DNA of 64,000 nucleotides. It comes from Sinomonas cyclohexanicum. Lineage in GTDB: Bacteria; Actinomycetota; Actinomycetes; Actinomycetales; Micrococcaceae. Where the stretch lies: positions 2,108,001 through 2,172,000 of the forward strand of contig NZ_AP024525.1 in the NCBI RefSeq assembly GCF_020886775.1, written 5' to 3'. Below the pieces are notes generated by a model. The model saw only the letters and a list, made by a program, of their open reading frames with translations. It made no database searches and was not told the origin of the DNA. A program made the position numbers and the translations under genes. This document shows, in pieces, positions 1-24,203 of the stretch (position 1 is the stretch's first letter; each line of letters opens with the position of its first letter).

Positions 1-1295
1 CCGAGATCGCCCAACTCTTTATTTGCTTCGCGGTCATATATTACTTCGAAATATGATGAGAATAGTTGGTGCCGACTCTGAGGAAGCTTCTGGCGCTTTG
101 CCATCAGGATCGTCATTATCGTAAGCTGCAGCGGTGTCGTCATGAGTTTAGCGGTCGCTGCGCTCATGAACGCGCTGTTGAGGTGGCCTCCAATCCTTCT
201 TACAGCGTCAGGATCACTGCCATAACGCACGTTCGTAAGTTGATTGACGTATGCCCGAGCTCGTGACTGGTCCAACGGCATGAGTTGGAGGTGTTGGTAT
301 ACGTCCGGGCTCATTTCGTCCGTGTACCCGTGTGGTCTTGTAGTCGCCACAATGAATACGTCGTACCCTTCTGCACGACAGTCTGTGAGAAAATTCTCCA
401 GTGTGGTCACGATTCGATCGCGTGCAAACATCGATGGCACTTCGTCAAGCCCGTCCAAGACGAGCAACCATGGCCATGTCCGTAGCCACTCTTTTAGGCC
501 GGCCGGATCCACCGAGCTGTCCTGGCCGGTTTCGTTTATTTTCTTGGCAATGAATTTTAGAAGGCTATCGGCACCGCCGTGGACGATTTCGTCGCTGAAT
601 TCAGAGAGCCTAAGGTGAATGGGCCAGCGTTTGTTTCTTGGCTCGGGCACTCTCAGAGTATCGAATATATGGGCGTCAAGCGACTTGATGAGCTCTTTCT
701 GTCTGAAATCGAGCGCATTCGGGTCCCGGTCGCGCAAGATGGAGATGCGGTACGCCTGACAAATCAGCTGACTTAGCGTTGATTTCCCTTGCCCAGGGCC
801 CCCCACAATCACCACATGGGACTTGTCCTCCACTGACTGCTGGGCTCGAACGGGGTGATCTGCTTTGGGGATTATCCATGAAATGGCCGAGACCAAAGGT
901 TGCTGTGCTGGGTCCAGATTGGGGTCTTGGGCGCCCCTAACAGTCGCTGGCAGATCGATTGCTACTTTGGAAAGCTGCAACCGCTCTGAGGTTTCCCCAC
1001 CCGATTGATCGAGCTTTATCCACTGCTCATGGTTGAGGCACTTGAGAGTGTACCCTTCGATGATCGATTTTAGAGCACGTCTGCTCTTGAGAAGATTCTC
1101 TTGTATTTCATGCAGAATGTCGCCCGATGTCAAGAATCCCGCATATGTGGTGCGTACTGCCGCATTCTGGTCAAGTAGGGTGGTCAGATGGTTGGCGTCC
1201 CATATATCCCAGCCCTTGACCCTCAGTGGTCGTAGTGCCTCTGCTATCTCCCGCCGGACAGTATCGTAGCCTCCAGAGGACGCATTGCCGCTTAA
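1..1295 (-). pseudogene. NACHT NTPase, C-terminal part of an interrupted defence gene (runs off the left edge)
   Basis: This is an open minus-strand reading frame of about 430 codons that continues past position 1. Walker A (GGPGQGKST) lies at 777-803 and Walker B (LLVLDGLDE) at 441-467. An ATTRPHGY segment follows, typical of NACHT and related STAND NTPases. Upstream of the P-loop is a helical segment containing WDIWDANHLTTLLDQN. The frame has no start of its own: it begins at the TTAA target duplication (1292-1295) of the IS1380-family element. Its first 120 codons lie on the far side of that element at 2965-3325, and joining the two across one TTAA keeps the frame. GC content is visibly much lower than in the flanking genes, which suggests transfer. 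NACHT proteins are known bacterial anti-phage sensors. The C-terminal sensor domain is outside the window. The gene is probably inactive in this strain. Confidence 0.85.
1292..1295. repeat. TTAA target-site duplication, left copy
   Basis: The TTAA directly abuts the left end of the IS1380-family element. The matching copy is at 2965-2968. Confidence 0.8.
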
Positions 1296-2964
1296 CCCGG
1301 ATCGTTCACGGGGCGGCGGCCTGATCGGCGCGTAGAAACACCGAAGTGCCCTCTGACCGGGGGAAACTTGGACTTGTCTAAGGTCCCAGGTTGCCCAGCA
1401 GAAAGCACTCGGTAGGTGAAGCGTACTCTGTGGTCGTCGGGTCTGTCCGTGTCCGCTGACGGTGTCGGCGTGGTGGCCCACTCGGGTGGCGTCGCGTTGC
1501 GTCTGATGGCGGACCGGTCCGGGCTCACGGCTGGACTGTCCAAGGCGTTGGCACGCCGTTCCTTCTCCCCGATCCACGACCGCGGCCGGGTGCTGGCCGA
1601 CGTGGCGGTGATGATCGCCGGTGGCGGGGAGGCGATCGCGGACATCGATGTCCTCAGGCATCAGGCTGACGTGCTCGGCCCGGTCGCGTCGCCCCCGACC
1701 GTCTGGAGGGCGCTGGACGAGGTCACCCCGTCGCGGCTGAAGCGGATCCAGGCCGCCCGGGCACGCGCGCGCCGGCACGTGTGGGCCCAGTTCCCCGCCG
1801 GCGTGCCGGCCAGCCGGGCCGCGGGCGCCGACCTCGGCAAGGACGTGGTGGTCCTGGACGTGGATGCCACGATCGTGGTGGCCCATTCCGAGAAGGAGCA
1901 GGCCTCCCCGACATTCAAGAAGACCTTCGGCTTCCACCCGATCGGGGTCTGGTGCGACAACACCTCCGAGTTCCTCGCGGGCATGCTGCGCACCGGCAAG
2001 GCCGGATCGAACACCGCAGCCGATCACATCGCGGTCCTCTCCGATGCGATCAGCCAGGTCCCCGCCGCCTATCGCAGGCGCCTGCTGATCCGCTCCGACG
2101 GCGCCGGGGCCTCCCACCGCCTGCTGGACTGGCTCACCGAGCAGGGCAGGGTCCGCGGGCGCAGCCTGGAGTACAGCGTGGGGTTCGCGGTCACCGAGCC
2201 TATCCGCCACGCCATCGCCAACGTCCCCGAACAGATCTGGACCCCGGCGCTGGACGCCGACGGCGGGGTGCGCGAAGGCGGCGACGTCGCCGAGCTCACC
2301 GGGCTGCTCGACCTGGCCGCGTGGCCGGAGGGGATGCGGATCATCGTCCGACGCGAACGCCCCCACCCGGGCGCGCAGCTGTCGCTGTTCGAAGAGGCCG
2401 ACGGCTGGCGCTACCAGGCCTTCGCGACCAACACCACGAGCGGACAGCTGGCGTTCCTGGAGGCCCGCCACCGGGCCCACGCCCGGGTCGAGGACCGCAT
2501 CCGCCACGCCAAGGACACCGGCCTGGGCCGGTTCCCGTCCCGCGAGTTCGCCATCAACCAGACGTGGCTGGCGCTGGCCGGCATCGCGGCGGACCTCGTG
2601 GCCTGGACCAGGCTCGTGGGAATGGTCGGAGACGCCAAGGTGCTCGCCGCCTGCGAGCCCAAGGCACTGCGCTATCGATTCCTGCACGTCCCGGCCCGCC
2701 TCACCCACGGCGCCCGCCGTCGACGGCTGCGGATCCCGGAGACCTGGCCTTGGGCAGCAGCGATCGTCGCGGTCTTCGCCAACATCGCCGCCATCCCACA
2801 ACCAGCCTGAACGAACCTGTCCGCCCACGACCCGAGGAACCCGGAGAACCGCCAACCGGCAGCGCCAGCCGGCGCTCCCATGCACCCAACGGACGACGTC
2901 CAAGCACTCAGCCCCGATCAAGACATATAGCCCCGCACCCGACCCGACTCGTGAAAGACCGAGG
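1296..2964 (+). mobile_element. IS1380-family insertion sequence, 1,669 bp
   Basis: The element is bounded by direct TTAA repeats (1292-1295 and 2965-2968). Its ends are imperfect terminal inverted repeats: CCCGGATCGTTCACGGGG on the left against CCTCGGTCTTTCACGAGT read inward from the right. It holds one transposase gene, about 120 bp of non-coding DNA on the left and 150 bp on the right. Length, single DDE transposase and 4-bp duplication fit the IS1380 family. It lies opposite in orientation to the NACHT gene it interrupts, after codon 120 of that gene. No additional decay is visible in either flank, so the insertion looks recent. Confidence 0.85.
1416..2810 (+). CDS. IS1380-family DDE transposase
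   Basis: A 464-residue protein with a GTG start. Acidic residues fit the DDE catalytic core: an LDVDATIV segment near residue 150, RSDGAG near residue 228, and RVEDRIRHAKDTGLGRFPSREF near residue 360, the last typical of the IS1380 C-terminal catalytic block. The length is usual for the family and no frameshift is seen, so the enzyme could be active. No good Shine-Dalgarno precedes the GTG, so the exact start is uncertain by a few codons. Confidence 0.9.
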   Translation: MKRTLWSSGLSVSADGVGVVAHSGGVALRLMADRSGLTAGLSKALARRSFSPIHDRGRVLADVAVMIAGGGEAIADIDVLRHQADVLGPVASPPTVWRALDEVTPSRLKRIQAARARARRHVWAQFPAGVPASRAAGADLGKDVVVLDVDATIVVAHSEKEQASPTFKKTFGFHPIGVWCDNTSEFLAGMLRTGKAGSNTAADHIAVLSDAISQVPAAYRRRLLIRSDGAGASHRLLDWLTEQGRVRGRSLEYSVGFAVTEPIRHAIANVPEQIWTPALDADGGVREGGDVAELTGLLDLAAWPEGMRIIVRRERPHPGAQLSLFEEADGWRYQAFATNTTSGQLAFLEARHRAHARVEDRIRHAKDTGLGRFPSREFAINQTWLALAGIAADLVAWTRLVGMVGDAKVLAACEPKALRYRFLHVPARLTHGARRRRLRIPETWPWAAAIVAVFANIAAIPQPA

Positions 2965-3325
2965 TTAACCGGACATTGGTCACGAAGAGAATGTATTGGG
3001 GGATCCGGCCCTTCTGCCTCCGGGTGCTCTTCGGATTGGTCCAGTTTCTGATTTCGGTCTTGAGCTGAGACAGAATCCAATTTGTGTCAGGGGTTCGCGT
3101 GGATGGCAGCTTGTATTTTGCCTGTAGGATCCCGTATCCGTCCCATGTGCCACCCTTAGGTTCGGGTGCAGGATAGTTAACCTTGCCACGGAACTCAGCT
3201 TCCCGTCCGCCGTCAGGTCCTGGCCCGAATGGATGCAGCGCAGGCCCCAGCACAGAACTAGCAAGGGCCCTAGCGAGGTGCTCGAATTCGGTATCTCCCA
3301 GTGCGTCAAAGTTGTAGAATGGCAT
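2965..3325 (-). pseudogene. PD-(D/E)XK nuclease domain, N-terminal part of the interrupted NACHT gene
   Basis: The frame starts at ATG 3325, three bases after the hsdR stop codon, so it is the next gene of the hsd operon and probably translationally coupled. It encodes 120 native residues before entering IS1380 sequence. The motif PDGGREAEF (Asp38) followed by LQAKYK (Gln68 and Lys70) is the Mrr-like variant of the PD-(D/E)XK nuclease core. The segment ends in ILFVTNVRL, whose last Leu codon (TTA) is formed by the target site. Joined to the fragment at 1-1295 it reads on in frame through SGNASSGGYDTVRREI into the NACHT part. The intact protein would therefore be nuclease, then NACHT, then a sensor domain outside the window. 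Confidence 0.85.
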
Positions 3326-3328
3326 CGC

Positions 3329-6300
3329 CTAAACCGCCTTCTCGGAGTACCGCCCCGCCATCGTCTCCATCTGCTCCATCACGAGCTTGATGGCGCCGGG
3401 CTGCTTGTCCGGCGGGTAGCCGTTCTTGACGAGCAGCCGCTTGATGGAGGTCCGCAGCTTCGACCGGACGTCCTCGCGCACCGTCCAGTCCGTGCGCACG
3501 TCCCGCCGCATGACCTGGACGAGCTGCCGCGCGATTTCGGCCAGCACGCCCTCGCCCTGTACCTCCACTGCGGATTCGTTCTGCGCCACCGCGTCGTAGA
3601 ACGCGAGCTCGTCCGAGTTCAGCGGGGGAGTGAACCGTGCCCCGCGGTTGCCCTCGGCCGCGACCTCGGCCGCCATCGCGAGCAGCTCCGCGATCACCTC
3701 CGCGGAGGTCAGCTGCTGGTTCGTGTACTTGCGCATGAGCTCGGTGATCCGCTCCGAGAAGGCCCGCTGCCGCACGATGTTGTTCCGCGTCGCCCGCGCC
3801 GACTCTTCGGCCACGAGCTTCCGCAGCGCCTCGAGCGCGAGCTGCGGGTTCCGCGCATGCCGCGTCTTCGCCATGAACTCGGGAGTGAGGTCGTCTAGCG
3901 ACGGCTTGGGCATGCCGGCGGCGTCGTAGATGTCCAGCACCTCACCGGACGCGGTCGCCGTCGCGATCAGTTCCCCGAGCATCCGCTCGATCTCCTCGGG
4001 AACCGGTTGGCCGGAGGCCTGGCGGTCGGCGGCGTCGAACTTCGCCATCCAGACGCGCACTTCCTCGTAGAAGCGGATCTCGGGCCGCAGCTCCGCAAGT
4101 GTCTGCGCCCCGGAGCACAGCGCCCAGGCCCGCGCGAGCTGTCCGGCCAGCTTCCGGTACCGAGCCCCGAGCGAATCCGGCCCGGTTCCGTGCCCCGGCT
4201 GCCGCAGGTACGACGTCGCCCCGGTCGCCGCGTTGAGGAAGGCCCGGGGCGACGGCGTCGCGAGCTCGGCCCTCCAGTCGTACCCGGCGAGCAGCCCGCG
4301 CAGCTGCTCCACGAGCGCCACGGTCAGCGCCACGGCCTCGTCCACATTCCGCCCCACGGGCTTCCGCGCCTGGTCGGTGACCGTGTACTCCTCGAGCGCC
4401 TTCGCGAGGTTGTCCGCGAGCGGCGCGTACGCCACGAGCAGCCCGTCCTCCTTGCCCCGGAACGTCCGGTTCACGCGCGCGAGCGTCTGCATCAGCAGCG
4501 CGCCCTTGAGCGGCCGGTCTAGGTACAGGGTGTGCAGGGGAGGGGAGTCGTACCCGGTGAGCATCATGTCCTTGACGATCACGATCTCGAGCTCGTCGTC
4601 CGGGTCCTTGAGCCGCTCCTTGATCGCGGCGTTCTGCGAGTCCCGCCGCACGTGGTCGGCTACGGGCGGCTGGTCGGCTGCGGTCCCGGAGTAGACCACC
4701 TTGATCCGGCCGCGGTCCAGCTCGTCCGCGTGCCAGTCCGGCCGCAGCTCCACGATCGCCGCGTATAGCTTCGCGCAGATCTCCCGGGTCGCCCCGACGA
4801 TCAGCGCCTTGCCGGGGACCTCGATGAACTTCTGCATCTGGGCCCGCCGGCCCTCCCAGTGCGCCACGAGGTCCGCGGCGAGCGCCCGGATTCGCTCCGG
4901 CGCGCCGTAGATCGCATTGACGACGGCGACGCTCGCCTCGATGCGCGCCCGCTCGGTGTCGTCGATGCCCACCGTGGCCTCGTCGGCGGCGAGGTCCAGC
5001 GCGTCGTCGTCCACCTGCTTGTCGACCTTGATGAGGCGCGGCTCGAAGTACACGGGCACGGTTGCGCCGTCGTCCACGGCCCGGGAGAGGTCGTAGATAT
5101 CGATGTATTCGCCGAACACGTCGCGGGTGTTGCGCTCGTCGAACGAGATGGGCGTTCCGGTGAACGCGATGAGCGTCGCGTGGGGGAGGGCGTCGCGGAG
5201 GTGCCGGGCGTAGCCGTCGAGGTCGTCGTAGTGGCTGCGGTGCGCCTCGTCGACCACCACGATGATGTTCTTCCGGTCCGAGAGCAGAGGGTGGTCAGCA
5301 CCGGCGTCCTTCTCGGCCTTGCTGAGCCCGAACTTCTGCAGCGTGGTGAAGTAGATCCCGCCGGTGGTGCGCTGGGACAGCTCCTCGCGCAGCTCGGCGC
5401 GGCGCCGGATCTGCTTCGGCTTCTCGGGCAGCAGGAGGCTGCGGTCGAACCCGGAGAACAGCTGCCCGTCCAGCTCGTTGCGGTCGGTGATCACCACGAC
5501 AGTGGGGTTCCGCAACCGCCGGTGGTGCATCACGAGGTTCGTGTACAGCTCCATCTCCATGGACTTGCCCGAGCCCTGCGTGTGCCAGACGACCCCGGCC
5601 TTGCCGTTGCTCTCGACCGCCTGGACAGTGGACCCGACGGCCTTGGTCACGGCGAAGTACTGGTGCGGCTTGGCGATGCGCTTCACGAGGCCCTCGGCCC
5701 CGCCGTCGAACGCGGTGAACCAGCGCATCAGCTGGAGGAACCGCTCCTGGTTGTACAGGCCGTTCAGGGCGGTCTCGAGTGGGGTGACCGCGTCGCCGTC
5801 GAGGGTCGCGTCCGGTGGGACGGGCACGCCGTCGTCGTCCACGTTCCATGGCGAGAAGTGGTTCAGCGGCGTGAACGGGGTGCCGTACTTCGCGTCGAGC
5901 CCGTCCGAGGCGAGGTTCACCACGGTGAAGCGGAACGCGAGCGGGAACTCGCGCAGGTAGGTCTGCAGCTGGGCGTGCGCGGTGGCGACGGTGGCCTCCT
6001 CGGCGCCGGCGGCCTTGAGCTCGACGACGCTCACCGGCAGGCCGTTGCAGTAGAGGACCAGGTCGAAGCGGCGGCGGTAGTCGCCCTGCGCGATGGTGAC
6101 CTGGTTGACGACGAGCCAGTCGTTCTGGTCGGGGTCGTCGTGCACGAGCCGGATGGTTGGGTTCCGCTCCGTGCCGTCCGCGTCGAGGTAGGTCAGCCGG
6201 TACCCGTGGACGAGGAACTCGTGCGCTCGGTGGTTCTCCGCGATCGCGTCCTGGGACGCGGGCGCCGCGAGCTCGGCGAGGGCCTGCCTGAGGTAGGGGA

Positions 6301-6496
6301 CCGGGACCTCGGGGTTGAACCGCTGCATCGCCGTGAGCAGCCGCGGCCGGATGAGCAGGTCGTCCCAGGTCTCGCGCTCGCCCGAGCCGGGCGCGATCTC
6401 CTCGCCGTTCCTGGGCGCCCAGCCGAGCTCGGCGAGCGACTCCTTCGCGAGGCCCTCCCAGTCGGCCTCGGTGAACGGTGCTGACGTCGTAGTCAT
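3329..6496 (-). CDS. hsdR: Type I restriction enzyme, HsdR subunit
   Basis: A 1,055-residue motor and nuclease subunit of a Type I restriction-modification complex. The N-terminal PD-(D/E)XK domain shows Asp145 and the ELK motif (Glu159, Lys161). The SF2 translocase has Walker A (HTQGSGKS) at 305-312, a DEAH box at 416-419, an LIAFTGTP motif and a TLARVNRTFRGK motif VI. ATG 6496 was chosen because a GGGGGA Shine-Dalgarno lies just upstream and the family N-terminus starts there; an in-frame codon 44 residues earlier lacks support. GC content resembles the core genome, unlike the neighbouring hsdS, DUF3800 and NACHT genes. It lies 238 bp downstream of the DUF3800 gene and three bases upstream of the NACHT gene. 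Confidence 0.95.
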   Translation of the reverse strand: MTTTSAPFTEADWEGLAKESLAELGWAPRNGEEIAPGSGERETWDDLLIRPRLLTAMQRFNPEVPVPYLRQALAELAAPASQDAIAENHRAHEFLVHGYRLTYLDADGTERNPTIRLVHDDPDQNDWLVVNQVTIAQGDYRRRFDLVLYCNGLPVSVVELKAAGAEEATVATAHAQLQTYLREFPLAFRFTVVNLASDGLDAKYGTPFTPLNHFSPWNVDDDGVPVPPDATLDGDAVTPLETALNGLYNQERFLQLMRWFTAFDGGAEGLVKRIAKPHQYFAVTKAVGSTVQAVESNGKAGVVWHTQGSGKSMEMELYTNLVMHHRRLRNPTVVVITDRNELDGQLFSGFDRSLLLPEKPKQIRRRAELREELSQRTTGGIYFTTLQKFGLSKAEKDAGADHPLLSDRKNIIVVVDEAHRSHYDDLDGYARHLRDALPHATLIAFTGTPISFDERNTRDVFGEYIDIYDLSRAVDDGATVPVYFEPRLIKVDKQVDDDALDLAADEATVGIDDTERARIEASVAVVNAIYGAPERIRALAADLVAHWEGRRAQMQKFIEVPGKALIVGATREICAKLYAAIVELRPDWHADELDRGRIKVVYSGTAADQPPVADHVRRDSQNAAIKERLKDPDDELEIVIVKDMMLTGYDSPPLHTLYLDRPLKGALLMQTLARVNRTFRGKEDGLLVAYAPLADNLAKALEEYTVTDQARKPVGRNVDEAVALTVALVEQLRGLLAGYDWRAELATPSPRAFLNAATGATSYLRQPGHGTGPDSLGARYRKLAGQLARAWALCSGAQTLAELRPEIRFYEEVRVWMAKFDAADRQASGQPVPEEIERMLGELIATATASGEVLDIYDAAGMPKPSLDDLTPEFMAKTRHARNPQLALEALRKLVAEESARATRNNIVRQRAFSERITELMRKYTNQQLTSAEVIAELLAMAAEVAAEGNRGARFTPPLNSDELAFYDAVAQNESAVEVQGEGVLAEIARQLVQVMRRDVRTDWTVREDVRSKLRTSIKRLLVKNGYPPDKQPGAIKLVMEQMETMAGRYSEKAV

Positions 6497-6734: not shown

Positions 6735-7475
6735 TCATGTCGGGGCCCAAATGTACCTGTAGCGCGTTACCGACTTAAGTCGTTTCTCGATCTCCGCCAT
6801 TACCTTCACGGCGTTCTTATGGTTCTCCGTGACCGTTAGATACCGGTTGGTAAAAAACGTCGCGATATCGGCCGCTTGCAGGAGACGACTATGGTCGGAT
6901 GGGCCAAAATAGATGGTATCCAGGAGATTCGACAGCTGGACATTCGTGAAACCCGATAACGCGTCGATCTTCATGCTCCTGAAGCGGCTGCGGCTATCCG
7001 GTGCACTGTGGTGTTCGTCGGCGAGGACGAGCGCATGCTCCGAGGGTGTGAAATCGCTAGTGATTACGCGTTGCACTGATTCCAAGGCGTGGCAGAGCGC
7101 TAGATCGTGGGGCTCGTGGGGTCTGACATACTTGCGCCTAACGGCGTGGATGTCAATCCCGCGAAATATGAATTTGGCACCTGAGTCTTCAATGCTCTTG
7201 ACGAGCAGTCTCGAAAGGCGAACGCGCAGCGAAACAGGCACTCTCTCCCACGCACCTTCGCCGTGGAACAATTCATAGGCGTGGAACTCTGTCGTCGGAT
7301 GAAGCCCTCGAACCTGCTTTGCTGCAAGGTCTCCAATCTTGTTAAAGCTTCGCTCGATGGCCAATGCTTCGGAGGTTCCGACGATGAGCGCGCCCATGTA
7401 GTAGTACTGCTGGCCTCGGGCTGATTCATCGATGAACGCTAGCAGCAACGGACCCACCCATACCACGGATCGCAC
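6735..7475 (-). CDS. DUF3800 domain protein
   Basis: A 246-residue protein of the DUF3800 family (PF12686). It shows the N-terminal AFIDES motif, a VLADEHHS segment near residue 150 and the C-terminal SRLLQAADIATFF motif. These acidic positions are the family signature and resemble an RNase H-like metal site, but no biochemical role is established. DUF3800 genes are often found in defence islands and prophages. Here the gene lies inside the hsd operon between hsdS and hsdR. The start is uncertain: GTG 7475 is the longest, while a TTG a few codons later has a better upstream purine stretch. GC content is lower than in hsdR and hsdM. Confidence 0.8.
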   Translation of the reverse strand: MRSVVWVGPLLLAFIDESARGQQYYYMGALIVGTSEALAIERSFNKIGDLAAKQVRGLHPTTEFHAYELFHGEGAWERVPVSLRVRLSRLLVKSIEDSGAKFIFRGIDIHAVRRKYVRPHEPHDLALCHALESVQRVITSDFTPSEHALVLADEHHSAPDSRSRFRSMKIDALSGFTNVQLSNLLDTIYFGPSDHSRLLQAADIATFFTNRYLTVTENHKNAVKVMAEIEKRLKSVTRYRYIWAPT

Positions 7476-7707: not shown

Positions 7708-8919
7708 TCACACGATATCCGAGACCAGAGTCGCAGCGTCCTTGACTCGTAGCTTCCCCGACATGAGCTGGGGGAGCAGGGCGTCGCGGGTGGATGAAAG
7801 TGCTTGGTTCTGACGCAGCGCTTCGCGCGCCACGGCATGTAGCGATTCAGCGGATCGAGCGAATTCGGACATCGTCTGTTGGTCTGCGAGCCGAACTTCG
7901 AACTTCTTGAAGTTGCCTCGGCCCAACTCGAGAAATGTTGCGCCGTTGGCCATAGAAATGAACTCATCGACTCTGTCGCGCATCTCGTGGAACAGCCAAT
8001 ACTTGAGGGTTGGGTCGAGAGGCTGAACCGCGATGAACCCTTGATTCACCGCGGTGTCAACTTGGGCGATGGCAAACGCGCCTATAGTCGCGCGCGACGT
8101 CATAAGGATTGTGCCTGACCGGTAGAGGGACGAGGCGCACGAAGATAGGCCCTCGGCGGTGATGCATCTTGAGGTTGACTCGAGATAGGGACCCGCAAGT
8201 CCTGTCACGTCGGTCGGCGTCGCCCAGGGGATCGTGCCGTCCCAGTAGTCAGAGACCTTGGTGCTCGGTGTACCGCCCCCGCCAACCGTTGCCAGATCAG
8301 CGAAGGTGGAACCGTTGAAGCTCGCGCTAAGCACCGCCCGGTGGAAGTTTGTGTGCGCCAGCTCGAGCGCAGTCGCCGAGATTTTGGTGTTGGCGACGAT
8401 CTTGTCGTCGAGGGCGCCCAGGACCTCCGCGATGGCCCGCTGCTCTCTCACATCAGGGATGGTGGCGACGAAGTCCTCGATCCGGCTCGGGCTCGTGTGT
8501 CGGACCGTGCTTCCGCTCGCAGTCCCGACGATGTGGTTGCGGTAGACGGAAGTGCGGAGGTAATAGGCAAGAAAGTCTTGCCGCAGAAGGTCCGGTCGTT
8601 TGATGAGGACCTTCCCGATTCGCTGATTGTGAAGATATCGCGCACCGGTAGGCACGACGGCCGGAAGGCCAAGCGTGTCGACATTTCGGCTCAGATCAGT
8701 CATGGTAAGGATCAGATCCCCCGCGTCGAGCTCGTAACCTGCCGGGATGTCTCCCGCGAAAGTCTTAGGGCGAGTTGTCTGAAATCCTCCGCCGATAGCA
8801 AAGTTGCCGGGCGTCACGAGGGTAGGGAATTTCTCTTCCTCGCTGAATAGTTCGCCTGGAAATGCGAAGCCGTGCTTTACGGAGATTGCCTCTCCGAGGC
8901 GCAGGTGGCGTGTGGTCAC
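7708..8919 (-). CDS. hsdS: Type I restriction enzyme specificity subunit, HsdS
   Basis: A 403-residue protein with two target recognition domains, each followed by a conserved helical spacer. The central spacer includes IPDVREQRAIAEVLGALDDKIVANTKI and the distal one ends with LLPQLMSGKLRVKDA. The second recognition domain shows the usual RATIGAFAIA and AVNQGF segments. The start is GTG 8919, which overlaps the hsdM stop (GTGA), a typical coupled junction. The open frame extends far upstream of this GTG, but there it is antisense-like sequence inside hsdM. GC content is lower than in hsdM, as expected for a swapped specificity gene. Confidence 0.93.
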   Translation of the reverse strand: MTTRHLRLGEAISVKHGFAFPGELFSEEEKFPTLVTPGNFAIGGGFQTTRPKTFAGDIPAGYELDAGDLILTMTDLSRNVDTLGLPAVVPTGARYLHNQRIGKVLIKRPDLLRQDFLAYYLRTSVYRNHIVGTASGSTVRHTSPSRIEDFVATIPDVREQRAIAEVLGALDDKIVANTKISATALELAHTNFHRAVLSASFNGSTFADLATVGGGGTPSTKVSDYWDGTIPWATPTDVTGLAGPYLESTSRCITAEGLSSCASSLYRSGTILMTSRATIGAFAIAQVDTAVNQGFIAVQPLDPTLKYWLFHEMRDRVDEFISMANGATFLELGRGNFKKFEVRLADQQTMSEFARSAESLHAVAREALRQNQALSSTRDALLPQLMSGKLRVKDAATLVSDIV

Positions 8920-10541
8920 GACACCCTCCCCAGCTGCTCCCGCACCACGGCCGCGAGCCGCTCCGACTCCTGGAACTGCTCGAACAGCTCCTTCTTGAGC
9001 CGCGCGATCTTCTCCTCGATCGGCTCGCCGTCGTCCTCGACTTCGGCGGCGCCGACGTATCGCCCGGGCGTGAGCGCGTAGTCGGCGGCCTTGATCTCCG
9101 CGAGGGAGGCCGAGAAGCAGAAGCCCGGCTCGTCGTCGTACGCCAATCCCGCCTCCACAGCGGAAGGCTTGCCGCGCCACGCGTGGTAGGTGCCCGCGAT
9201 CTTGGCGATGTCCTCGTCGGAGAGCGCGCGCTCGGCCCGATCCACCATGTGCCCCATGTTCCGCGCATCGATGAAGAGCACCTGCCCGCGCCTGTCCACG
9301 GAGCCCTGCGCCCCGGCCGACTTGTCCTTCGCGAAGAACCACACGCACACCGGGATGCCGGTGGAGCGGAACAGCTGGGTCGGAAGCGCGACCATGCAGG
9401 AGACCATGTCCGCCTCGACGATCTGAGCCCGGATGTCGCCCTCGCCGCCCGAGTTCGAGGACATGGACCCGTTGGCCATGACCACGCCCGCGGACCCGCC
9501 GGGGGCGAGCTTGGACAGGATGTGCTGGATCCACGCGTAGTTCGCGTTCCCGGCCGGCGGGACGCCGTACGCCCATCGCGGGTCGGACTCGTTGCGCGCC
9601 CAGTCCTTGATGTTGAACGGCGGGTTGGCCATCACGAAGTCGGCCATCATGTCCGGGTGCTGGTCCCGAGCGAACGTGTCGCCCCAGCGCGAGGCCAGGT
9701 TCCCGTTGAGGCCGTGGATCGCGAGGTTCATCTTCGCCATCCGCCACGTGCGCTCGTTGAGCTCCTGCCCGTACACGGAAATGGCCGTCCGGTCGCGGTG
9801 GTGTGCGTCGAGGAACTTCTCGGCCTGCACGAACATGCCGCCCGAGCCGCAGCACGGGTCGTAGACGCGCCCGTGGTCCGGCTCGAGCACCTCCACGAGC
9901 ACCCGCACCACGCCGGCGGGCGTGTAGAACTCCCCGCCACGCTTGCCCTCAGCGCGCGCGAACTTCTCGAGGAAGTACTCGTACACCTCCCCGAGCAGGT
10001 CGCGGGCCCGCCGCGCCCCCGCGCCGGCGAACGAGAGGTTGCGCGCGTTGAACAGGTCGATCAACTCGCCCAGGCGCTTCTGGTCCACATTGTCCCGGTT
10101 GTAGATGCGCGGGAGCGTGCCCTGGAGCGACTCGTTGGAGACCATGAGCTTCTCCATCGCCTCGTCCACGAGCTGCCCGATCGACTTCGGCGCCGCCCCG
10201 TCGATCGCCGGCAGCCCCTTCGCGTGCTCGGCGAGGTACTCCCACCTCGCGTGCCACGGCACCCAGAACACGCTGTGCCCCGTGTACTCGTCCACGTCGT
10301 CCGTGAACTGGCCGATCTGGTCCTCGCTCATGCCCTCGGCACGCAGCTCGGCCTCGATCTGCGCCCGGCGCTCCTCGTACGCGTCCGAGACGTACTTGAG
10401 GAACACGAGGCCGAGGATCACGTCCTTGTACTGCGACGCGTCCATGGAGCCGCGCAGCTTGTCCGCGGCCTTCCACAGGGTGTCCTTGAGCTCCTTCATG
10501 GTCGACGGCGCGGCCTCGGCCTTCGCTTTGCGCGGTGGCAT
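8916..10541 (-). CDS. hsdM: Type I N6-adenine DNA methyltransferase, HsdM
   Basis: A 541-residue methyltransferase. It has the HsdM N-terminal helical domain (residues 10-180), the EFYTPAG approach, SAM motif I (DPCCGSGG, 228-235) and catalytic motif IV (NPPF, 306-309). All key residues are present. Its ATG overlaps the TGA of the upstream gene by one base (TGATG), and its own stop overlaps the hsdS GTG, so three genes are translationally coupled. It methylates the host recognition site and with two HsdR subunits forms the restriction complex. Confidence 0.96.
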   Translation of the reverse strand: MPPRKAKAEAAPSTMKELKDTLWKAADKLRGSMDASQYKDVILGLVFLKYVSDAYEERRAQIEAELRAEGMSEDQIGQFTDDVDEYTGHSVFWVPWHARWEYLAEHAKGLPAIDGAAPKSIGQLVDEAMEKLMVSNESLQGTLPRIYNRDNVDQKRLGELIDLFNARNLSFAGAGARRARDLLGEVYEYFLEKFARAEGKRGGEFYTPAGVVRVLVEVLEPDHGRVYDPCCGSGGMFVQAEKFLDAHHRDRTAISVYGQELNERTWRMAKMNLAIHGLNGNLASRWGDTFARDQHPDMMADFVMANPPFNIKDWARNESDPRWAYGVPPAGNANYAWIQHILSKLAPGGSAGVVMANGSMSSNSGGEGDIRAQIVEADMVSCMVALPTQLFRSTGIPVCVWFFAKDKSAGAQGSVDRRGQVLFIDARNMGHMVDRAERALSDEDIAKIAGTYHAWRGKPSAVEAGLAYDDEPGFCFSASLAEIKAADYALTPGRYVGAAEVEDDGEPIEEKIARLKKELFEQFQESERLAAVVREQLGRVS

Positions 10542-12532
10542 CAGCGTCCTTCCTCTCGTACTGCTGGTTCCGGAAACTCGAGGGCGAGCGCGCCGCTGGT
10601 GACGGCGTCCGCCAGAACTCTGTTGAGCTCGGTGAGCCTCTCCAGCCGGCGGCGCACCTCGGCCTGTTCACGCACGACGGCGCCCATCGCCTCGGCGAGA
10701 GGGCGCCGCTGGGACTCGGGGAGCCGTCGGACGCGCCACTGCTTCCAGCGGCGGTCGCCGGGCTCGCGGGCGTTGATGTCCGCCGCGAGCAGCGCGGGGG
10801 AGAGGCCTCCCGGGTCGGCCTGGCTGATCCGCAGGATCCGCGCCGGGAAGGGCACCACTGATGCCCCCTCCTCATCCACCATGGCGGCAGGCCGCGGGCT
10901 CGTGCAGAAGACGACGTCGCCGGGATCGGTGAGCCGCGCGCCGGGATGACGGGCGACGAACTCGAGCAGGTCCACGGTCCGGACCCTAGCCGCGGCATCC
11001 GACACTTCTGCCGCGCCCAGCACCCGGGTGCCGTCTCCGCGGAAGGAGGCCTCGCCGTCGTCCATGCGGATTCCCGGCAGGCACGCGAGGTTCCCGGCAG
11101 CCATCAGCCGCTCCAGCGTCTCCGCTGCTGGCGCCTGCCCGGTGCCCTGCGCGAGCGCAAGGCACAACCCCAGCTCGCCGATCAGCTCCTCGAGCCGCAG
11201 CTGCAGCTCCGCCGGCCGTCCCGACGCCAGCGGGGACGCAACCGCGAGCTGGACCAGCGAATCCCGCGCCGCCAGGAGCTTGCGCGTGTATGCAATGCGG
11301 GCGAACCGGTAGGAGTGCGTGAAGATCGCGTCCCGCTCGAGCAGCGACGCCGCGATGTCTCCCACGAGGTCCTCGCGGACGTCCCGCGTGAGGCTGCGGC
11401 CGGTCAGGTCGGCCACGAGAGTCCAGCGGTCGGCGAGCGCAACGTCCGCGTGCCCGGGCCCGAGGATCCACAGCGCCTGAGCCTCCCGCGGCCTCGCCGG
11501 GAGCGTCCCCTCCGGCAGCCGCACGACGGCGCGCACCCGTCCGCCGCGCAGCAGGTCGCCGCGGATCGCCGAGGCCGCCTTGTCCGTCAGCGCATCCGTG
11601 AGAGCTCGCGCGGGGGCCAGGACCACGGCGCGCTGCTGGTCGTCCATCTGGAGCGCGATGCCGTCCAGGCGGCTCAGGACCTGCTCGGGATCCGTGCCCG
11701 GCAGGTGCGCGACGATGACCGCCTGCCCGGCGACGTCGAACTCCCCGCTCCTTCCGACAGCGAGCGCCTCCGGGTGCGCGCCGTGGACGAGCAGCCGGCG
11801 GCGCGCCGCGCGGCAGGAGGGCGCGCCGTCGTCCGCAAGGAGCAGGCGCGGCTCCGCACCTTCGGGGAGGGCCCGGACGACGGCGAGCGGCAGCTCGCTG
11901 CTGCCCGGAACCGGATCCGCGAGCGCGGCGCCTGAACCGAGCCCCCGCAGGAGTTCGGCGGCGGCCGACGCGACCAGCCGCACGGTGTCTGTGCTCGGCA
12001 GGTCGGATCGCTCGCGCTGCGCTGCCGTAAGCCGCTCGAAGGCCTCGGCGGGGTTGTAGGCGGCGTCGATGAGGCGGCGGGCGTAGCGGGCCGCGGTCGT
12101 GAGGTTGTCGCCCAGGGACTCGAGTTCGGACCAGAGGGCGGTATCACCGGGGTCGGCGTCGTCGGCCTCGTCGAGGAGCTCGTCCGAGGGGAGCGAGTCG
12201 AGGGGGAGACCTGCGATCGCGGCGAGCGCAAGGAGCGCCTCGAGGCCCTCCGCGATGCGAGGCGTGCCCTGGTCCAGGGCGCTGCGGATGCTGAACGCGT
12301 CGGCGTCCGCGAGCGCCTCGGGGTTCTTGCCGCGGTGGGTCGCGGCGAGCCACGCGCCGACCTCGCGGGCGTCGAACAGCTCCTGACCGGCGCGCGTGCC
12401 GCGGGGGGCCGGGAACGGCTGATCGGTGCCGGCCGCGCGGGTGCGCCAGACCGAAACGACCGGGCGCTGGACCCTCGCGAGCCGGGCGACGTCGGGGAGG
12501 GTCAGCAGCGGTGCTTCGAGATGCTGCGCCAT
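10541..12532 (-). CDS. Degenerate N6-methyltransferase and specificity-like protein, first gene of the hsd operon
   Basis: A 663-residue protein starting at ATG 12532 behind GGGAGGGGG. Residues 10-75 look like a MerR/excisionase-type helix-turn-helix. The middle follows the layout of an HsdM fold, including helices like AFSIRSALDQGTPRIAEGLEALL and a late block RAVVLAPARALTD...LLRGGRVRAVVRLPEG. The SAM motif is replaced by DPVPGSSE, and the NPPF position reads AHLPGTD, so catalysis is unlikely. The last 150 residues resemble half an HsdS: a target-recognition-like segment with PGDVVFCTSP, then a coiled coil. It may be a pseudo-methyltransferase DNA-binding partner or regulator of the system. 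The fold assignment is inference from motif order. Confidence 0.6.
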   Translation of the reverse strand: MAQHLEAPLLTLPDVARLARVQRPVVSVWRTRAAGTDQPFPAPRGTRAGQELFDAREVGAWLAATHRGKNPEALADADAFSIRSALDQGTPRIAEGLEALLALAAIAGLPLDSLPSDELLDEADDADPGDTALWSELESLGDNLTTAARYARRLIDAAYNPAEAFERLTAAQRERSDLPSTDTVRLVASAAAELLRGLGSGAALADPVPGSSELPLAVVRALPEGAEPRLLLADDGAPSCRAARRRLLVHGAHPEALAVGRSGEFDVAGQAVIVAHLPGTDPEQVLSRLDGIALQMDDQQRAVVLAPARALTDALTDKAASAIRGDLLRGGRVRAVVRLPEGTLPARPREAQALWILGPGHADVALADRWTLVADLTGRSLTRDVREDLVGDIAASLLERDAIFTHSYRFARIAYTRKLLAARDSLVQLAVASPLASGRPAELQLRLEELIGELGLCLALAQGTGQAPAAETLERLMAAGNLACLPGIRMDDGEASFRGDGTRVLGAAEVSDAAARVRTVDLLEFVARHPGARLTDPGDVVFCTSPRPAAMVDEEGASVVPFPARILRISQADPGGLSPALLAADINAREPGDRRWKQWRVRRLPESQRRPLAEAMGAVVREQAEVRRRLERLTELNRVLADAVTSGALALEFPEPAVREEGR

Positions 12533-12616
12533 CCGGTCCCCCTCCCATGCCTGCGCCGCGGACGCGGTGCTGAGGTACAGCCTAGGCGGATCGGGGCCAC
12601 TTTTCGGCTGATCACC

Positions 12617-14674: not shown

Positions 14675-15631
14675 TTACTCTCCTTTCCAGATGACGAGGT
14701 CCTTCAGGGGCGCGGGATCGGTGTTCGTGGCCTGTTGGAGGAGCCGGTAGAACAACAGTCCGCGGCTGGTGGAGGTGCGGCGGTTGAACCGGAAGGTGAA
14801 CTCGTCGAGATAGTAGGCCAGCTGTTCCCTTGAGATGCCCTGGTGCAGGGTGCCGTCGATCCAGCGCTTGAGCTGGGAAGCGGCCATGTGCACGGCCGGC
14901 ATGTTCACGTGTGCCGGGATGTCCGAGCCGAGCTGGGTGAAGTACTCGTGCTGGTAGCCCAGGTCGGCGAAGCGACGCAACTGCCTCGCCCCGTCGGTGC
15001 GGATCGTCGAGCCCGGTGCGACGACTCGCTGACCGAACTTCACCAGCGCGAGCCTGCGATCAGTAGGCCCTGGCTCGAGGCGGATGCGTCCGATCCGGTT
15101 GTGACCCAGGTGCTCGGCAGCGATCAGGACCGAGATCTTGTCGGACCCGAGACCGGGCATGTCGCGGTGGACGCCGCCGATGAAGCTCTCGTCGACCTCG
15201 ACCAGCCCAGAGAGCAGTTCCCGCTCGGGGCGGACCATGGCGCGGCGGAGCTTGTGCATCCACGCCCACGCCGTCTCATATGAACTCAGCCCCAGAACGC
15301 GCTGCAGGCCGAGGGCGGACACGCCGTTCTTCTGCGAGGTCACGAACCACACCGCAGCGAACCATGTCCGCAGTGGGGTGCGGGTGCGGTCGAAGATGGT
15401 TCCTGCCGTCACTGAGGTCCGGCGCGAGCACGCCTTGCACATCCAGAGGCCTGCGCCCGTCCGCCAGTACTCGCGGCCGCCGCACTTCGGGCAGACGAAT
15501 CCCTCCGGCCACCGCAGCGTCGCAAGATACTCGAAGCAGGCCTCATCGGTGGCGAACCAGTCTTGGAACTGCCCGAAAGTCTTCGGGTAGTCCACCCCGG
15601 CACGAGGCATGTGCGGCACGAAGTCGGCCAT
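14675..15631 (-). CDS. IS1595-family transposase
   Basis: A 318-residue DDE-type transposase with the family's N-terminal zinc ribbon (CPKCGG near residue 48, then CKAC near 70). The catalytic core includes VEVDESFIGG (Asp/Glu near 145) and the late helix with ASQLKRWIDGTLHQGI. Its ATG is 6 nt after a TAGTCT box (complement of 15638-15643) embedded beside the right inverted repeat. The frame is intact, so the element may be mobile. Confidence 0.93.
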   Translation of the reverse strand: MADFVPHMPRAGVDYPKTFGQFQDWFATDEACFEYLATLRWPEGFVCPKCGGREYWRTGAGLWMCKACSRRTSVTAGTIFDRTRTPLRTWFAAVWFVTSQKNGVSALGLQRVLGLSSYETAWAWMHKLRRAMVRPERELLSGLVEVDESFIGGVHRDMPGLGSDKISVLIAAEHLGHNRIGRIRLEPGPTDRRLALVKFGQRVVAPGSTIRTDGARQLRRFADLGYQHEYFTQLGSDIPAHVNMPAVHMAASQLKRWIDGTLHQGISREQLAYYLDEFTFRFNRRTSTSRGLLFYRLLQQATNTDPAPLKDLVIWKGE

Positions 15632-15674: not shown

Positions 15675-17158
15675 TCGAAGAGGTGGCGAGGGCGGAGCCC
15701 CTCGAGAGGCCTGCAGGGGTGGCGCTTCCGCACGATCCTGCCGACTTCTCGCGGGTCCTCGCGGGTGTCGTCTCTGAACTGGGCGTGGGCGGAAGCCCGA
15801 CGGTGGCGGAGGTCACCTCGTGGACGACCACGCTCGGCACGCCATTCGATGAGGACGCCGCGCTGGGCGAGGCCGAGCTCGTGGACCGGATTGCCGCCAC
15901 GGAGCGGCTCAAGGCCGCAGCCGCGGCACGGCAGGCGCGGGACACGGTGCTCCTCGAGAAGCGGATCCGCGAGCGTCGCACGGCTGAGGCGGCCGGGGCC
16001 CCGGTGCCGTCGGGGGAGCAAATCGGCAAGGGGCCCCGGGAGGTGGATCCTGGCATCGAGGCCGGCCAAGCGGTCGCCTTGGCCCGCTGCGAGTCGCCAT
16101 CAAGGGGCGGCCGGCTGGTCGGCCTCGCGAAGGCGCTCGTCAACGAGATGCCCCACACCCTCAACGCACTGGCCAGCGGACGGACCAACGAATGGCGGGC
16201 TACTCTCATGGCCCGAGAGACGGCATGCCTGAGCGTCGAGGACCGTGTCCGGGTCGATGAGGCCATGGTGCCGGTATACGCGCGTGGCGGCGTAGGGGAC
16301 CGTCAGCTGGTTGCGGAGGCGCGCGCCCATGCGCAGCGTCTGGACCCCGCCGCTGCCGTCAAGCGTGCCCGCAGGGCCGAATCCGAGCGGCGCGTGACCG
16401 TGAGGCCGGCGCCGGATTCGATGGCGGTTCTCTCGTGCCTGCTCCCGGCGGCTCAGGCGATCGCGGCCTACAAGGCGCTGACGGCGGCGGCGGACTCGGC
16501 GCGGGCCGAAGGGGCGGATGAGCTCGACGGCCGGACCCGTGACCAGTTCATGGCGGACACTGTGGTCGAGCGGCTGACGGGGCAGTGCAACGCCAAGGAC
16601 GTCCGGATCGAGGCGAACGTGGTCATCACCGATGCCTCCCTCCTCGGTGGGTCCGCGGATCCGGCAGTGCTTACAGGTTATGGGATGATCCCGGCTCAAG
16701 TGGGGAGGGACCTCATCGGCAATGCGACGGCCGAGGGCCGAGCCGCCCTCCGCCGGCTCTACACGAAGCCAGGAGCCGGGGCGCTGGTCGCGATGGAATC
16801 GCGCTCGCGGGCGTTCCCGGACGGCCTCAAGCAGTTCATCGCCACGCGGGACGTGACCTGTCTGAATCCGTGGTGCGATGCACCCATCCGGCAGTTCGAT
16901 CACGTCATTCCGGCGGCGCGAGGCGGCCCCACCACCGTGGAGAACGGCCAGGGCCTGTGCGAACACTGCAACCAGGCCAAGGAAGCGCCCGGGTGGCATG
17001 AGACGACTACTCCGGCCACCCGGCATACAGTCACGGTGACTACACCAACTGGCCATCGCTACACGTCCACGGCGCCGCCTCTGCCAGGCAACCGGGAGAT
17101 CGTGGGCCACCGAGTGGAGTTCCCCGGCGGAGAGTATGTCTTCCACACGGCGGCCTGA
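15671..17158 (+). CDS. DUF222 and HNH endonuclease domain protein (13E12 family), promoter severed by an IS
   Basis: A 495-residue protein of the actinobacterial 13E12/REP-type family: a DUF222 region over most of the length and a C-terminal HNH nuclease domain (CLNPWCD, then FDHVIPAARGG, then N...LCEHCNQAKE, about residues 397-438), complete in its Cys and His residues. Its biological role is unsettled. The ATG at 15671 survives only because the IS1595-family insertion duplicated ACACATGT. The native TAGAAT box now lies 1.6 kb upstream beyond the element. A poor TACCCA box (15659-15664) at the IS end is the only near candidate promoter, so expression is doubtful although the coding sequence is intact. 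Confidence 0.88.
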   Translation: MFEEVARAEPLERPAGVALPHDPADFSRVLAGVVSELGVGGSPTVAEVTSWTTTLGTPFDEDAALGEAELVDRIAATERLKAAAAARQARDTVLLEKRIRERRTAEAAGAPVPSGEQIGKGPREVDPGIEAGQAVALARCESPSRGGRLVGLAKALVNEMPHTLNALASGRTNEWRATLMARETACLSVEDRVRVDEAMVPVYARGGVGDRQLVAEARAHAQRLDPAAAVKRARRAESERRVTVRPAPDSMAVLSCLLPAAQAIAAYKALTAAADSARAEGADELDGRTRDQFMADTVVERLTGQCNAKDVRIEANVVITDASLLGGSADPAVLTGYGMIPAQVGRDLIGNATAEGRAALRRLYTKPGAGALVAMESRSRAFPDGLKQFIATRDVTCLNPWCDAPIRQFDHVIPAARGGPTTVENGQGLCEHCNQAKEAPGWHETTTPATRHTVTVTTPTGHRYTSTAPPLPGNREIVGHRVEFPGGEYVFHTAA

Positions 17159-19545: not shown

Positions 19546-19632
19546 TGGTGCGCGGAGGGGGACTTGAACCCCCACGCCCTATTCGGGCACTAGCACCTCA
19601 AGCTAGCGCGTCTGCCATTCCGCCACCCGCGC
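19546..19632 (-). tRNA. tRNA-Leu, anticodon GAG, CCA encoded
   Basis: The minus strand folds as a class II tRNA: acceptor GCGCGGG paired with CCGCGC plus A and encoded CCA; anticodon stem CTAGC/GCTAG with loop TTGAGGT; a long variable arm (TGCCCGAATAGGGCG); and T arm GGGGGTTCAAGTCCCCC. The anticodon GAG reads CUC and CUU. The sequence is identical to the copy at 19867-19953. Confidence 0.95.
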
Positions 19633-19866: not shown

Positions 19867-19953
19867 TGGTGCGCGGAGGGGGACTTGAACCCCCACGCCC
19901 TATTCGGGCACTAGCACCTCAAGCTAGCGCGTCTGCCATTCCGCCACCCGCGC
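19867..19953 (-). tRNA. tRNA-Leu, anticodon GAG, second copy
   Basis: Identical along its whole length to the tRNA at 19546-19632, with encoded CCA and its own hairpin terminator. The two genes are 321 bp apart start to start, in the same direction. Confidence 0.95.
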
Positions 19954-20093: not shown

Positions 20094-21416
20094 GTGACCG
20101 ACCGCGCCCCCGTGAACCCCATCACCGCCGAGGACGAGGTGGTGGGAATCTGCCAGGATCTCATCCGCTTCGACACGTCGAACTACGGCGACGGCTCGGG
20201 CCCGGGGGAGCGCTCCGCGGCGGAGTACGCCGCGGGGCTCCTCGCGGAAGTCGGCCTCGAGCCGGAACTGTTCGAATCGGCACCTGGGCGCGCCAACGTC
20301 GTCGTGCGTCTTGAGGGCACCGACCCGGGCGCCGGTGCCCTCGTGGTGCACGGCCACCTCGACGTGGTGCCGGCGCAGAAGGAGGACTGGAGCATCGACC
20401 CGTTCTCCGCCGAGCTCAAAGATGGGCTCATCTGGGGGCGCGGCGCCGTGGACATGAAGGACATGGACGCCATGATCCTGTCCGTGGTCCGGCAGATGCA
20501 GCGCACCGGGACCAAGCCCAAGCGGGACCTCGTCATCGCACTCTTCGCCGATGAGGAGGCCGGCGGCGCATACGGCGCGCGCTGGGCCGTCGACAACCGT
20601 CCCGAGCTGTTCGACGGCGCCACCGAGGCCATCAGCGAAGTGGGCGGCTACTCCGCCTACATCGGCGGCAAGCGCGCCTACATGCTGCAGACCGCAGAGA
20701 AGGGCCTCGGCTGGCTCCGGCTCAGGGCCTCTGGCCGCGCCGGCCACGGTTCCCAGATCAACGACGACAACGCCGTGACCCGTCTTGCGCGCGCCGTGGC
20801 CCGGATCGGCGACTACGAGTGGCCGATCGAGCTCACCGACACCACGGGCCGGTTCCTCGACGGCGTCACAGAGCTCACCGGCGTCGAGTTCGACCCTGAC
20901 AACCCCGACATCCTGCTCAAGGAGCTCGGCACGGTGGCGCGGTTCGTGGGGGCAACCCTGCGCAACACGTCGAACCCGACCGTCCTCACGGCCGGCTACA
21001 AGGACAACGTCATCCCGGGGTCGGCCGAGGCGCGCATCGACACCCGCACACTGCCCGGTCAGGACGAGCTCGTGCTCGCCAAGCTCAAGGAACTCGCCGG
21101 AGACGGCGTCGAGTTCGACTACATCCACCACGACGTCTCCCTCGAGACCCCGTTCGAGGGCCCGCTTGTGGACGCCATGGTCGGCGCCCTCCATGCCGAG
21201 GACCCTGGCGCCGCCGTGCTCCCGTACACGCTCTCCGGCGGGACCGACAACAAGTCGCTGAGCCGCCTGGGCATCACCGGGTACGGCTTCGCCCCGCTCC
21301 AGCTCACCCCGGACCTCGACTTCCCGGCCATGTTCCACGGGGTCGACGAGCGGGTCCCCGCCGAGGCGCTCACGTTCGGCGCCCGCGTGCTGCGCAGACT
21401 GCTGACCACGTACTGA
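20094..21416 (+). CDS. M20 family metallopeptidase or deacylase
   Basis: A 440-residue cytoplasmic di-zinc hydrolase of the M20/ArgE/DapE group. The metal site shows VVHGHLDVVP near residue 85, GRGAVDMKD near 120 and ADEEAGG near 155, followed by the dimerisation lid. It probably cleaves a dipeptide or N-acyl amino acid. GTG 20094 is preferred because AGGAGG sits 6 nt upstream; a TAGGCT box at 20056-20061 gives a short leader. The acyl-CoA dehydrogenase-like gene follows 33 bp later, so the two probably form an operon. Confidence 0.9.
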   Translation: MTDRAPVNPITAEDEVVGICQDLIRFDTSNYGDGSGPGERSAAEYAAGLLAEVGLEPELFESAPGRANVVVRLEGTDPGAGALVVHGHLDVVPAQKEDWSIDPFSAELKDGLIWGRGAVDMKDMDAMILSVVRQMQRTGTKPKRDLVIALFADEEAGGAYGARWAVDNRPELFDGATEAISEVGGYSAYIGGKRAYMLQTAEKGLGWLRLRASGRAGHGSQINDDNAVTRLARAVARIGDYEWPIELTDTTGRFLDGVTELTGVEFDPDNPDILLKELGTVARFVGATLRNTSNPTVLTAGYKDNVIPGSAEARIDTRTLPGQDELVLAKLKELAGDGVEFDYIHHDVSLETPFEGPLVDAMVGALHAEDPGAAVLPYTLSGGTDNKSLSRLGITGYGFAPLQLTPDLDFPAMFHGVDERVPAEALTFGARVLRRLLTTY

Positions 21417-21449
21417 GCCGCCAGAGACCCCGCAACGGAGGAAGCCGCG

Positions 21450-22610: not shown

Positions 22611-22859
22611 CTACGCCGTCCGCTCGACGAGCATGACCTTGCGCCGCAGCAGGTACTGCCGGCCGCCGCCGATGTACAGCCGACTCCGCTCGAGCTCCCA
22701 TTTGCCGTATTCGGAGTGCTCGCGCACCCGCTGGCGTGCCTCGGCCACCGAGTCGCCCGGCCCCACCGAGAGGACCAGATACTCGTAGGCTCGACCCGGT
22801 CCGGCGGACCGCGTCCCGAGGCCGGGAGACTCGGCGGTGGAGAGGATCCGTTCCTTCAT
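22611..22859 (-). CDS. DUF5703 family small protein
   Basis: An 82-residue protein with the actinobacterial DUF5703 signature: EYLVLSVGPGDSVAEARQ, HSEYGKWELERSRLYIGGGRQYLLRRKVM. Its function is unknown. ATG 22859 follows GCGAGGG. It converges with the acyl-CoA dehydrogenase gene, their stops being adjacent. Confidence 0.85.
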   Translation of the reverse strand: MKERILSTAESPGLGTRSAGPGRAYEYLVLSVGPGDSVAEARQRVREHSEYGKWELERSRLYIGGGRQYLLRRKVMLVERTA

Positions 22860-22950
22860 GGCCCTCGCTTCCTCGTGCTGTGGCGGCGCGTCACCGGAGC
22901 CTGTCCGACTCCCTAGGCACGCCCACTGATTTCAGACTACCGTGGCACCC

Positions 22951-23283
22951 ATGAGCATTGATCCGCGCGTCGCCCTTGGTTCGCTCACGGCTGCATTGGA
23001 GGAGCACCTCGCCGCCGCCTCGAACCGGCGCGGGGACGAGGATCCGGCCGTCGAGTCGGCCTTCTTCGCCGTCGCCGACGCGTTCGAGGCCTATGCCGAC
23101 GCCCTCTATGACGCCTACGGCGAAGACCTTCCGATGGACCTCCTCGACTCGGACGACGACGAGGATGACGATGACGACGACGAGGAAGACGACGGCGAGG
23201 AAGACGACGGCGACGGCGACAACGACGAGGACGACGAGAACGCCGACGACGGCGAGGACGCGCTCGCCGGCCGCGACTTCTAG
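22951..23283 (+). CDS. Small acidic protein of unknown function
   Basis: A 110-residue protein. The first 60 residues are a helical domain ([51 protein letters not shown]). The rest is an almost pure Asp/Glu tail of about 40 residues. Such proteins are common in Micrococcaceae with no assigned role; the tail suggests DNA mimicry or protein binding. ATG 22951 is chosen because TACCGT (22938-22943) stands 7 nt upstream in a leaderless arrangement. Confidence 0.75.
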
Positions 23284-23354
23284 GAAGGCCAGGGAGCCCG
23301 CCGGCTCCCAGCGGATTCACAGAAACATCCCACCTGCCACGTAGAGTGGCAGGC

Positions 23355-24194: not shown

Positions 24195-24203
24195 AGTGGA
24201 CAG

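Follow-up and report, generated by a model that had tools for sequence, protein, structure and literature searches.

A predicted nuclease-NACHT defence gene at the end of a type I restriction operon of Sinomonas cyclohexanicum is split by an IS1380-family element

A stretch of 64,000 nucleotides from Sinomonas cyclohexanicum (hereafter the window; bases 2108001-2172000 of a genome of 4,413,566 bases that forms a single contig with four 16S genes) begins within a gene that is split by an insertion sequence (IS) of the IS1380 family. We consider it highly probable that this gene encoded a nuclease-NACHT defence protein of 977 amino acids (aa), that it stood last in a type I restriction operon, and that the insertion inactivated it. 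The best match of the 16S gene in the plasmid collection is to Arthrobacter, at 95.2%, in agreement with a host from the Micrococcaceae. The split itself is real, and the break looks recent. The original prediction, made from the letters of the window, was that an IS1380-family element, with a target duplication of 4 bp, interrupts a single PD-(D/E)XK nuclease-NACHT gene; the sequence, a profile of homologues and the family of the transposase all agree with it.

Both fragments of the gene lie on the minus strand. The N-terminal fragment occupies window positions 2969-3325 (119 aa, with its ATG at 3325) and carries the motifs GPDGGRE, which includes D38, and QAK; its frame extends for 16 codons inside the IS, giving an open reading frame (ORF) of 135 aa at 2918-3325. 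The C-terminal fragment had been predicted at 1-1295. Its start at 1295 (genome 2109295) stands, but the gene overshoots the window edge by about 1.3 kb, ending at a stop at genome 2106719 (about -1281 in window coordinates), for 858 aa in all. Within the window this fragment contains the end of the nuclease domain, a linker, the NACHT and the start of a helical C-terminal region, with the motifs GGPGQGKS and LLVLDGLDE. Between the two fragments lies an IS of 1,669 bp (1296-2964, plus strand) with imperfect terminal inverted repeats, bordered by copies of TTAA at 1292-1295 and 2965-2968 and encoding a transposase of 464 aa (1416-2810, plus strand; DDE_Tnp_1_4, PF13701, 3.2e-61). The IS1380 family is marked by a DDE_Tnp_1_4 transposase, short imperfect inverted repeats beginning CC and a 4-bp target duplication, and the 1,669-bp element has all of these features. 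Plasmid-borne relatives of its transposase, about 74% identical, are labelled IS1380 family transposase wherever they are annotated. When 1296-2968 (the IS and one TTAA) is removed in silico, the fragments join in frame as NVRL-SGNASS, just as had been predicted, and the joined frame runs for 977 aa to its natural stop and gives a single profile match.

Comparison with homologues shows that the two fragments derive from one gene. A profile of 69 homologues, from which the split gene was excluded, matches the N-terminal fragment at positions 5-116 (143.4 bits, E 1.4e-45) and the C-terminal fragment at positions 117-869 (749.8 bits, E 8.6e-229); from these ranges, the fragments abut. The joined protein matches the profile as one domain over positions 5-869 (916.6 bits, E 3.5e-279; all E-values are for a search of three sequences). 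In tblastn searches of 16 homologous loci, both halves were on one strand in all 16 and in one frame in 15, where the spacing between the two matches is at most 28 bases in 12 loci and 110-145 in-frame bases in the other three. The sixteenth locus, a plasmid homologue of Rhodococcus qingshengii RL1, is interrupted as well: an IS3 element of 1,264 bp (L028:5693-6956), with TTG on both sides, lies about 13 codons upstream of the IS1380 site in the window; with two events only, we take the closeness of these sites as coincidence. The copy in R. erythropolis BG43 has an in-frame stop ahead of the end of the tblastn match. From a collection with one genome per species, the best 80 of at least 275 stretches encoding relatives were analysed. 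The match is stop-free in 78 of these 80 loci and has one stop in the other two, in a list that, as a selection of the best matches, is biased towards intact copies; among the 78, L119 begins at a contig end and is missing its N-terminus. The alternative of two separate genes is ruled out by the joined profile match, the 78 stop-free matches and the 15 one-frame loci, and the expectation that relatives carry a single gene is borne out by the latter two counts.

Sequence motifs and structure models of a homologue suggest that the protein is an NLR-like nuclease-NACHT protein, of the bNACHT kind by its NACHT module and N-terminal effector. The PD-(D/E)XK core is an alpha-beta-beta-beta-alpha-beta fold with D and (E/Q)xK residues; the nuclease domain of the homologue fits this definition and the D and QxK residues are conserved. 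According to the homologue model, the N-terminal fragment comprises the PD-(D/E)XK domain through beta4, with D38 and QAK. In the C-terminal fragment, the NACHT model PF05729 scores 31.4 bits against a cut-off of 26.7. The homologue models show a PD-(D/E)XK nuclease set on an NLR-like NACHT body, with the Avs4 nuclease as the best solved match to the nuclease and with NOD2, NLRP3 and NLRC4 as matches to the whole model. The C-terminal region is mostly helical in the model and was assigned to no family. A sequence search for solved relatives yielded none for the N-terminal fragment, and with the profile it yielded mainly P-loop proteins and weak matches to NLRC4. As for Mrr, the N-terminal fragment has no Pfam match and Mrr is not among the structural matches listed for the nuclease. 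A weak NCBIfam match names EruA, which we did not find together with NACHT in the open-access literature searched.

Several described systems resemble this protein in part. bNACHT25 and bNACHT32 (clade 6) are alike in combining an N-terminal PD-(D/E)XK DNase effector, a central NACHT and a C-terminal part in a single protein; phage proteins activate them through DnaJ, DNA is degraded, and a D48A mutation abolishes defence (PMC12169576). This is a likeness by description. NCH1, the C-terminal domain of clade 6, is absent from the Pfam matches of the host protein and four homologues, in a library whose content for NCH1 was unchecked, and the host protein matched no other NACHT C-terminal domain model. 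Avs4 and Avs3 differ in having chains of 1,534 and 2,028 residues, respectively, versus 977 here; the likeness to Avs4 is limited to the nuclease domain match, Avs3 ranks below NOD2 and NLRP3 as a match to the whole model, and no Avs models are among the PADLOC matches. Both fragments match the PADLOC candidate PDC-S73, over short stretches only (profile positions 1-41 and 183-215), and among homologues the matches are confined to its first 40 positions or are absent. A further source (PMC10359306) reports IS insertions in cas genes, together with insertions of IS1 or IS10 in a further 12 defence gene clusters; these are alike in that an IS lies within a defence gene, but involve cas genes and IS1 or IS10, whereas the nuclease-NACHT gene is interrupted by an IS1380-family element. 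We found no prior report of the nuclease-NACHT family or of its IS insertion in the literature searched. The case is of a known kind twice over, as a predicted NLR-like nuclease-NACHT gene and as a putative defence gene lost to an IS.

The genomic setting, on which the original prediction is silent, ties the split gene to a restriction operon. The TAG stop of hsdR is followed by GCG and then by the ATG of the nuclease-NACHT gene, and this gap of 3 bp indicates that the latter closes a type I operon comprising hsdM, hsdS, a DUF3800 gene and hsdR. All are on the minus strand: the restriction subunit gene hsdR directly upstream (3329-6493), the DUF3800 gene (6735-7475; Pfam scan), the specificity subunit gene hsdS (7708-8841) and the methylase gene hsdM (8916-10541), the three hsd genes being identified by Pfam and PADLOC scans. 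The G+C content is 0.54-0.56 in the nuclease-NACHT gene, 0.55 in the DUF3800 gene, 0.60 in hsdS, 0.70 in hsdR and 69.9% over the window, and the low value suggests that the nuclease-NACHT gene was probably acquired. We compared the DNA adjoining the conserved left flank in seven of 14 congeners, and in four of the seven the flanks are nearly adjacent: the conserved stretches that end at genome 2106160 and start at 2123669 are only 58 bases apart in G005 and about 100-250 bases apart in G002, G003 and G009. There is other DNA between the flanks in G011, and in G014 the left flank alone was matched. The near-adjacent flanks mark the 17.5 kb containing the nuclease-NACHT gene as a variable region. 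In congener G004 the restriction operon occupies the equivalent position, and there the hsdR stop is overlapped by a different ORF, of 637 aa and with no Pfam or PADLOC matches.

Other features of this region were also observed. A 665-aa ORF (10541-12538, minus strand) overlaps hsdM and has no Pfam, NCBIfam or PADLOC matches. A 159-nt direct repeat, 72% identical (L003:15064-15222 and 16287-16445), lies close to the left boundary of the variable region, and at the right boundary is a zinc-ribbon transposase-like ORF (14675-15631, minus strand), which probably belongs to IS family IS1595 and whose region is 88.8% identical over 979 bp to the Sinomonas atrocyanea plasmid pSA01. Near the right conserved flank are two tRNA genes of equal Rfam score (19549-19632 and 19870-19953, minus strand), with starts 321 bases apart.

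These features are consistent with the following model. In the ancestral product, an N-terminal PD-(D/E)XK DNase would have been coupled to a central NACHT switch and to a helical C-terminal part that probably sensed infection. By analogy with bNACHT25 and Avs, a phage cue may have led the NACHT to oligomerise and switch the nuclease on, and DNA would then have been cut and the phage stopped, at a price paid by the cell. The gene, probably acquired, would have sat last in the type I restriction operon, right after hsdR, when a mobile IS1380-family element entered a TTAA in what is predicted to be a loop just past beta-strand 4 of the nuclease. We predict that the insertion parts the catalytic core from the rest of the nuclease domain and from the NACHT; with its core severed in this way, the protein should be inactive. 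The frames of hsdM, hsdS and hsdR upstream are intact.

Several results weigh against this model. The NACHT scored below the Pfam cut-off in all four homologues scanned, no Pfam, NCBIfam or PADLOC model spans the scanned proteins end to end, Foldseek alone gave no nuclease matches below E 0.001, and we found no defence test of this exact family in the open-access literature. In addition, a shorter C-terminal product could arise from starts within the fragment or in the IS. The original prediction held that the left-hand (C-terminal) fragment has no start codon of its own and would be missed by annotation, but this is not the case: although there are no in-frame starts in its first 54 codons, there are TTG codons at 55, 106 and 134 and a GTG at 155, and the frame continues uninterrupted across the antisense strand of the IS as a 1,453-aa ORF from a TTG at 3080, so a gene caller could call something there. 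The split gene might therefore be alive in two parts, with the nuclease made as a short polypeptide that works jointly with a separate NACHT polypeptide, the latter initiated in the IS or at an internal TTG or GTG, and the stop-free state of both halves is in keeping with this. However, the cut in the nuclease fold falls after beta4 and separates a helix and a strand from the rest of that domain, and long antisense ORFs are expected in DNA of 70% G+C. Moreover, the identical IS copies described below make the insertion look recent, and the openness of the frame is thus no sign of selection. We regard survival in two parts as very unlikely.

We think it similarly improbable that the IS is a phase-variable switch, in which precise excision would restore the gene and populations would mix on and off cells. 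Elements of the piggyBac type excise precisely, and the empty site here gives exact restoration of the frame. Further points in favour of a switch are that IS1380 transposases serve as the outgroup of the piggyBac superfamily, the majority of which show TTAA duplications (PMC10813416), and that a second homologue, in R. qingshengii RL1, is split so close by. Yet every insertion that duplicates its target yields a restorable frame on paper, we found no precise excision of an IS1380 element, an identical copy of the IS also splits an ordinary alkaline phosphatase gene, and PMC10359306 reads IS insertions in defence genes as loss. The reversibility of the knock-out in the original prediction is conjecture. 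That the fragments are remnants of two different genes joined by rearrangement is hardly credible, given the abutting profile ranges, the TTAA matching on both sides and the single ORF of the homologues. Inactivation of one defence gene by the insertion is the reading we prefer.

The genome holds four letter-for-letter identical copies of the 1,669-bp IS, whose duplications (TTAA, TTAA, TTAG and CTAG) point to YTAR as the target. The TTAA duplications that had been predicted are present at the window copy, but strict TTAA targeting is ruled out by the TTAG and CTAG copies. YTAR occurs at 9.2 per kb in the nuclease-NACHT gene versus 0.76 per kb in window 13001-64000, and TTAA five times in the gene versus never in those 51 kb. 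This density fits an acquired, A+T-rich target, yet one copy of the IS sits in DNA of 70% G+C. The flanks have a G+C content of 0.53-0.67 at three of the four copies and 0.69-0.70 at the fourth, inside the alkaline phosphatase gene, and the idea that the IS always seeks low-G+C DNA holds only partly. This fourth copy (L009:1133-4317, genome 4269432-4271104) leaves Pfam positions 1-71 and 81-423 of the phosphatase on either side. Another copy (L012:1501-3169, genome 2177559-2179230) lies 128 bp upstream of a Pycsar-cyclase-like ORF (L012:563-1372, minus strand; PADLOC PycC 4.3e-27) that adjoins an ORF with an E2 match, and the copy in L011 is inside an ImmA/IrrE-like ORF (Pfam M78 5.5e-15, PADLOC capP 1.2e-15). 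Together with the copy in the nuclease-NACHT gene, this makes three of the four that lie within or next to defence-like genes.

The nuclease-NACHT gene is absent from all 14 congeners, and matches were found in eight of 294 other genomes of the family, four of them strong (E below 1e-100). At E <= 1e-20 there were matches in eight of 395 others in the order sample and 20 of 393 others in the class sample, two samples that overlap and whose counts take in nuclease-only and partial matches. Single-sequence scans of genome and viral collections gave no relatives; an alignment-based scan found them. In two genomes of the same class (L140 and L143), the nuclease module, at about profile positions 1-196, occurs as a fusion with nSTAND1 NTPases (PF20703), and plasmid pUSK13_2 of Rhodococcus sp. 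USK13 carries two homologue copies in opposite orientation within a mirrored gene stretch (L031:12006-14870 and 21409-24273). We clustered the ORFs of at least 120 aa around the 80 homologues, over 4 kb on the upstream side and 5 kb on the downstream side, and no conserved partner gene emerged, the largest cluster reaching at most eight of the 80 loci; the gene therefore looks solitary. We also compared the five operon proteins of the window with 96 loci, among which L036 and L040 (the latter with the intact homologue of Arthrobacter sp. AQ5-06) represent one contig. At E <= 1e-8, relatives were found for hsdM alone, in two loci, which rules out the restriction operon as a constant partner. 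This suggests that the link to restriction-modification is local.

The gene that follows hsdR varies between type I loci of the Micrococcaceae (L171:2618-4531, minus strand; L204-L241). Matches to hsdR at E <= 1e-200 occur in 58 of 295 family genomes, with S. cyclohexanicum and G004 included. For 38 further hsdR homologues, from 37 genomes, we examined the DNA downstream, leaving out one match at a contig end and matches under 71% identity. In 30 of the 38, the hsdR stop is followed within 150 bases by the start of an ORF of at least 80 aa, and in 15 within 57 bases; chance probably accounts for some of these ORFs, and at least two pairs have similar starts. Neither the nuclease-NACHT profile nor the 637-aa ORF of G004 is matched by any of the 30. 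Of those picked by size and closeness for scanning (nine with Pfam, ten with PADLOC), five of ten belong to defence families: one GajA, two AAA_13/PDC-S06 (one with a weak PrrC match) and two GmrSD-type. The remainder are one RelA/SpoT-like ORF with a match to the defence candidate PDC-S33 and four ORFs with no match. This is a lead from an uncontrolled sample and not a demonstrated enrichment. Under PrrC-like logic, a second defence is triggered once phage anti-restriction disables the restriction-modification system. It is possible, though unlikely, that the place after hsdR in the Micrococcaceae is a swappable slot for second-line defence, in which the nuclease-NACHT protein guarded the restriction enzyme until it was silenced by an IS preferring low-G+C defence DNA. 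If the slot proves general, it would be a cheap place for finding new defence genes.

These results add to the bacterial NLR-like proteins a widespread predicted nuclease-NACHT family that carries no end-to-end label in the libraries searched. They also offer what appears to be a clean example, from nature, of defence-gene loss through an IS next to a restriction operon that stays open.

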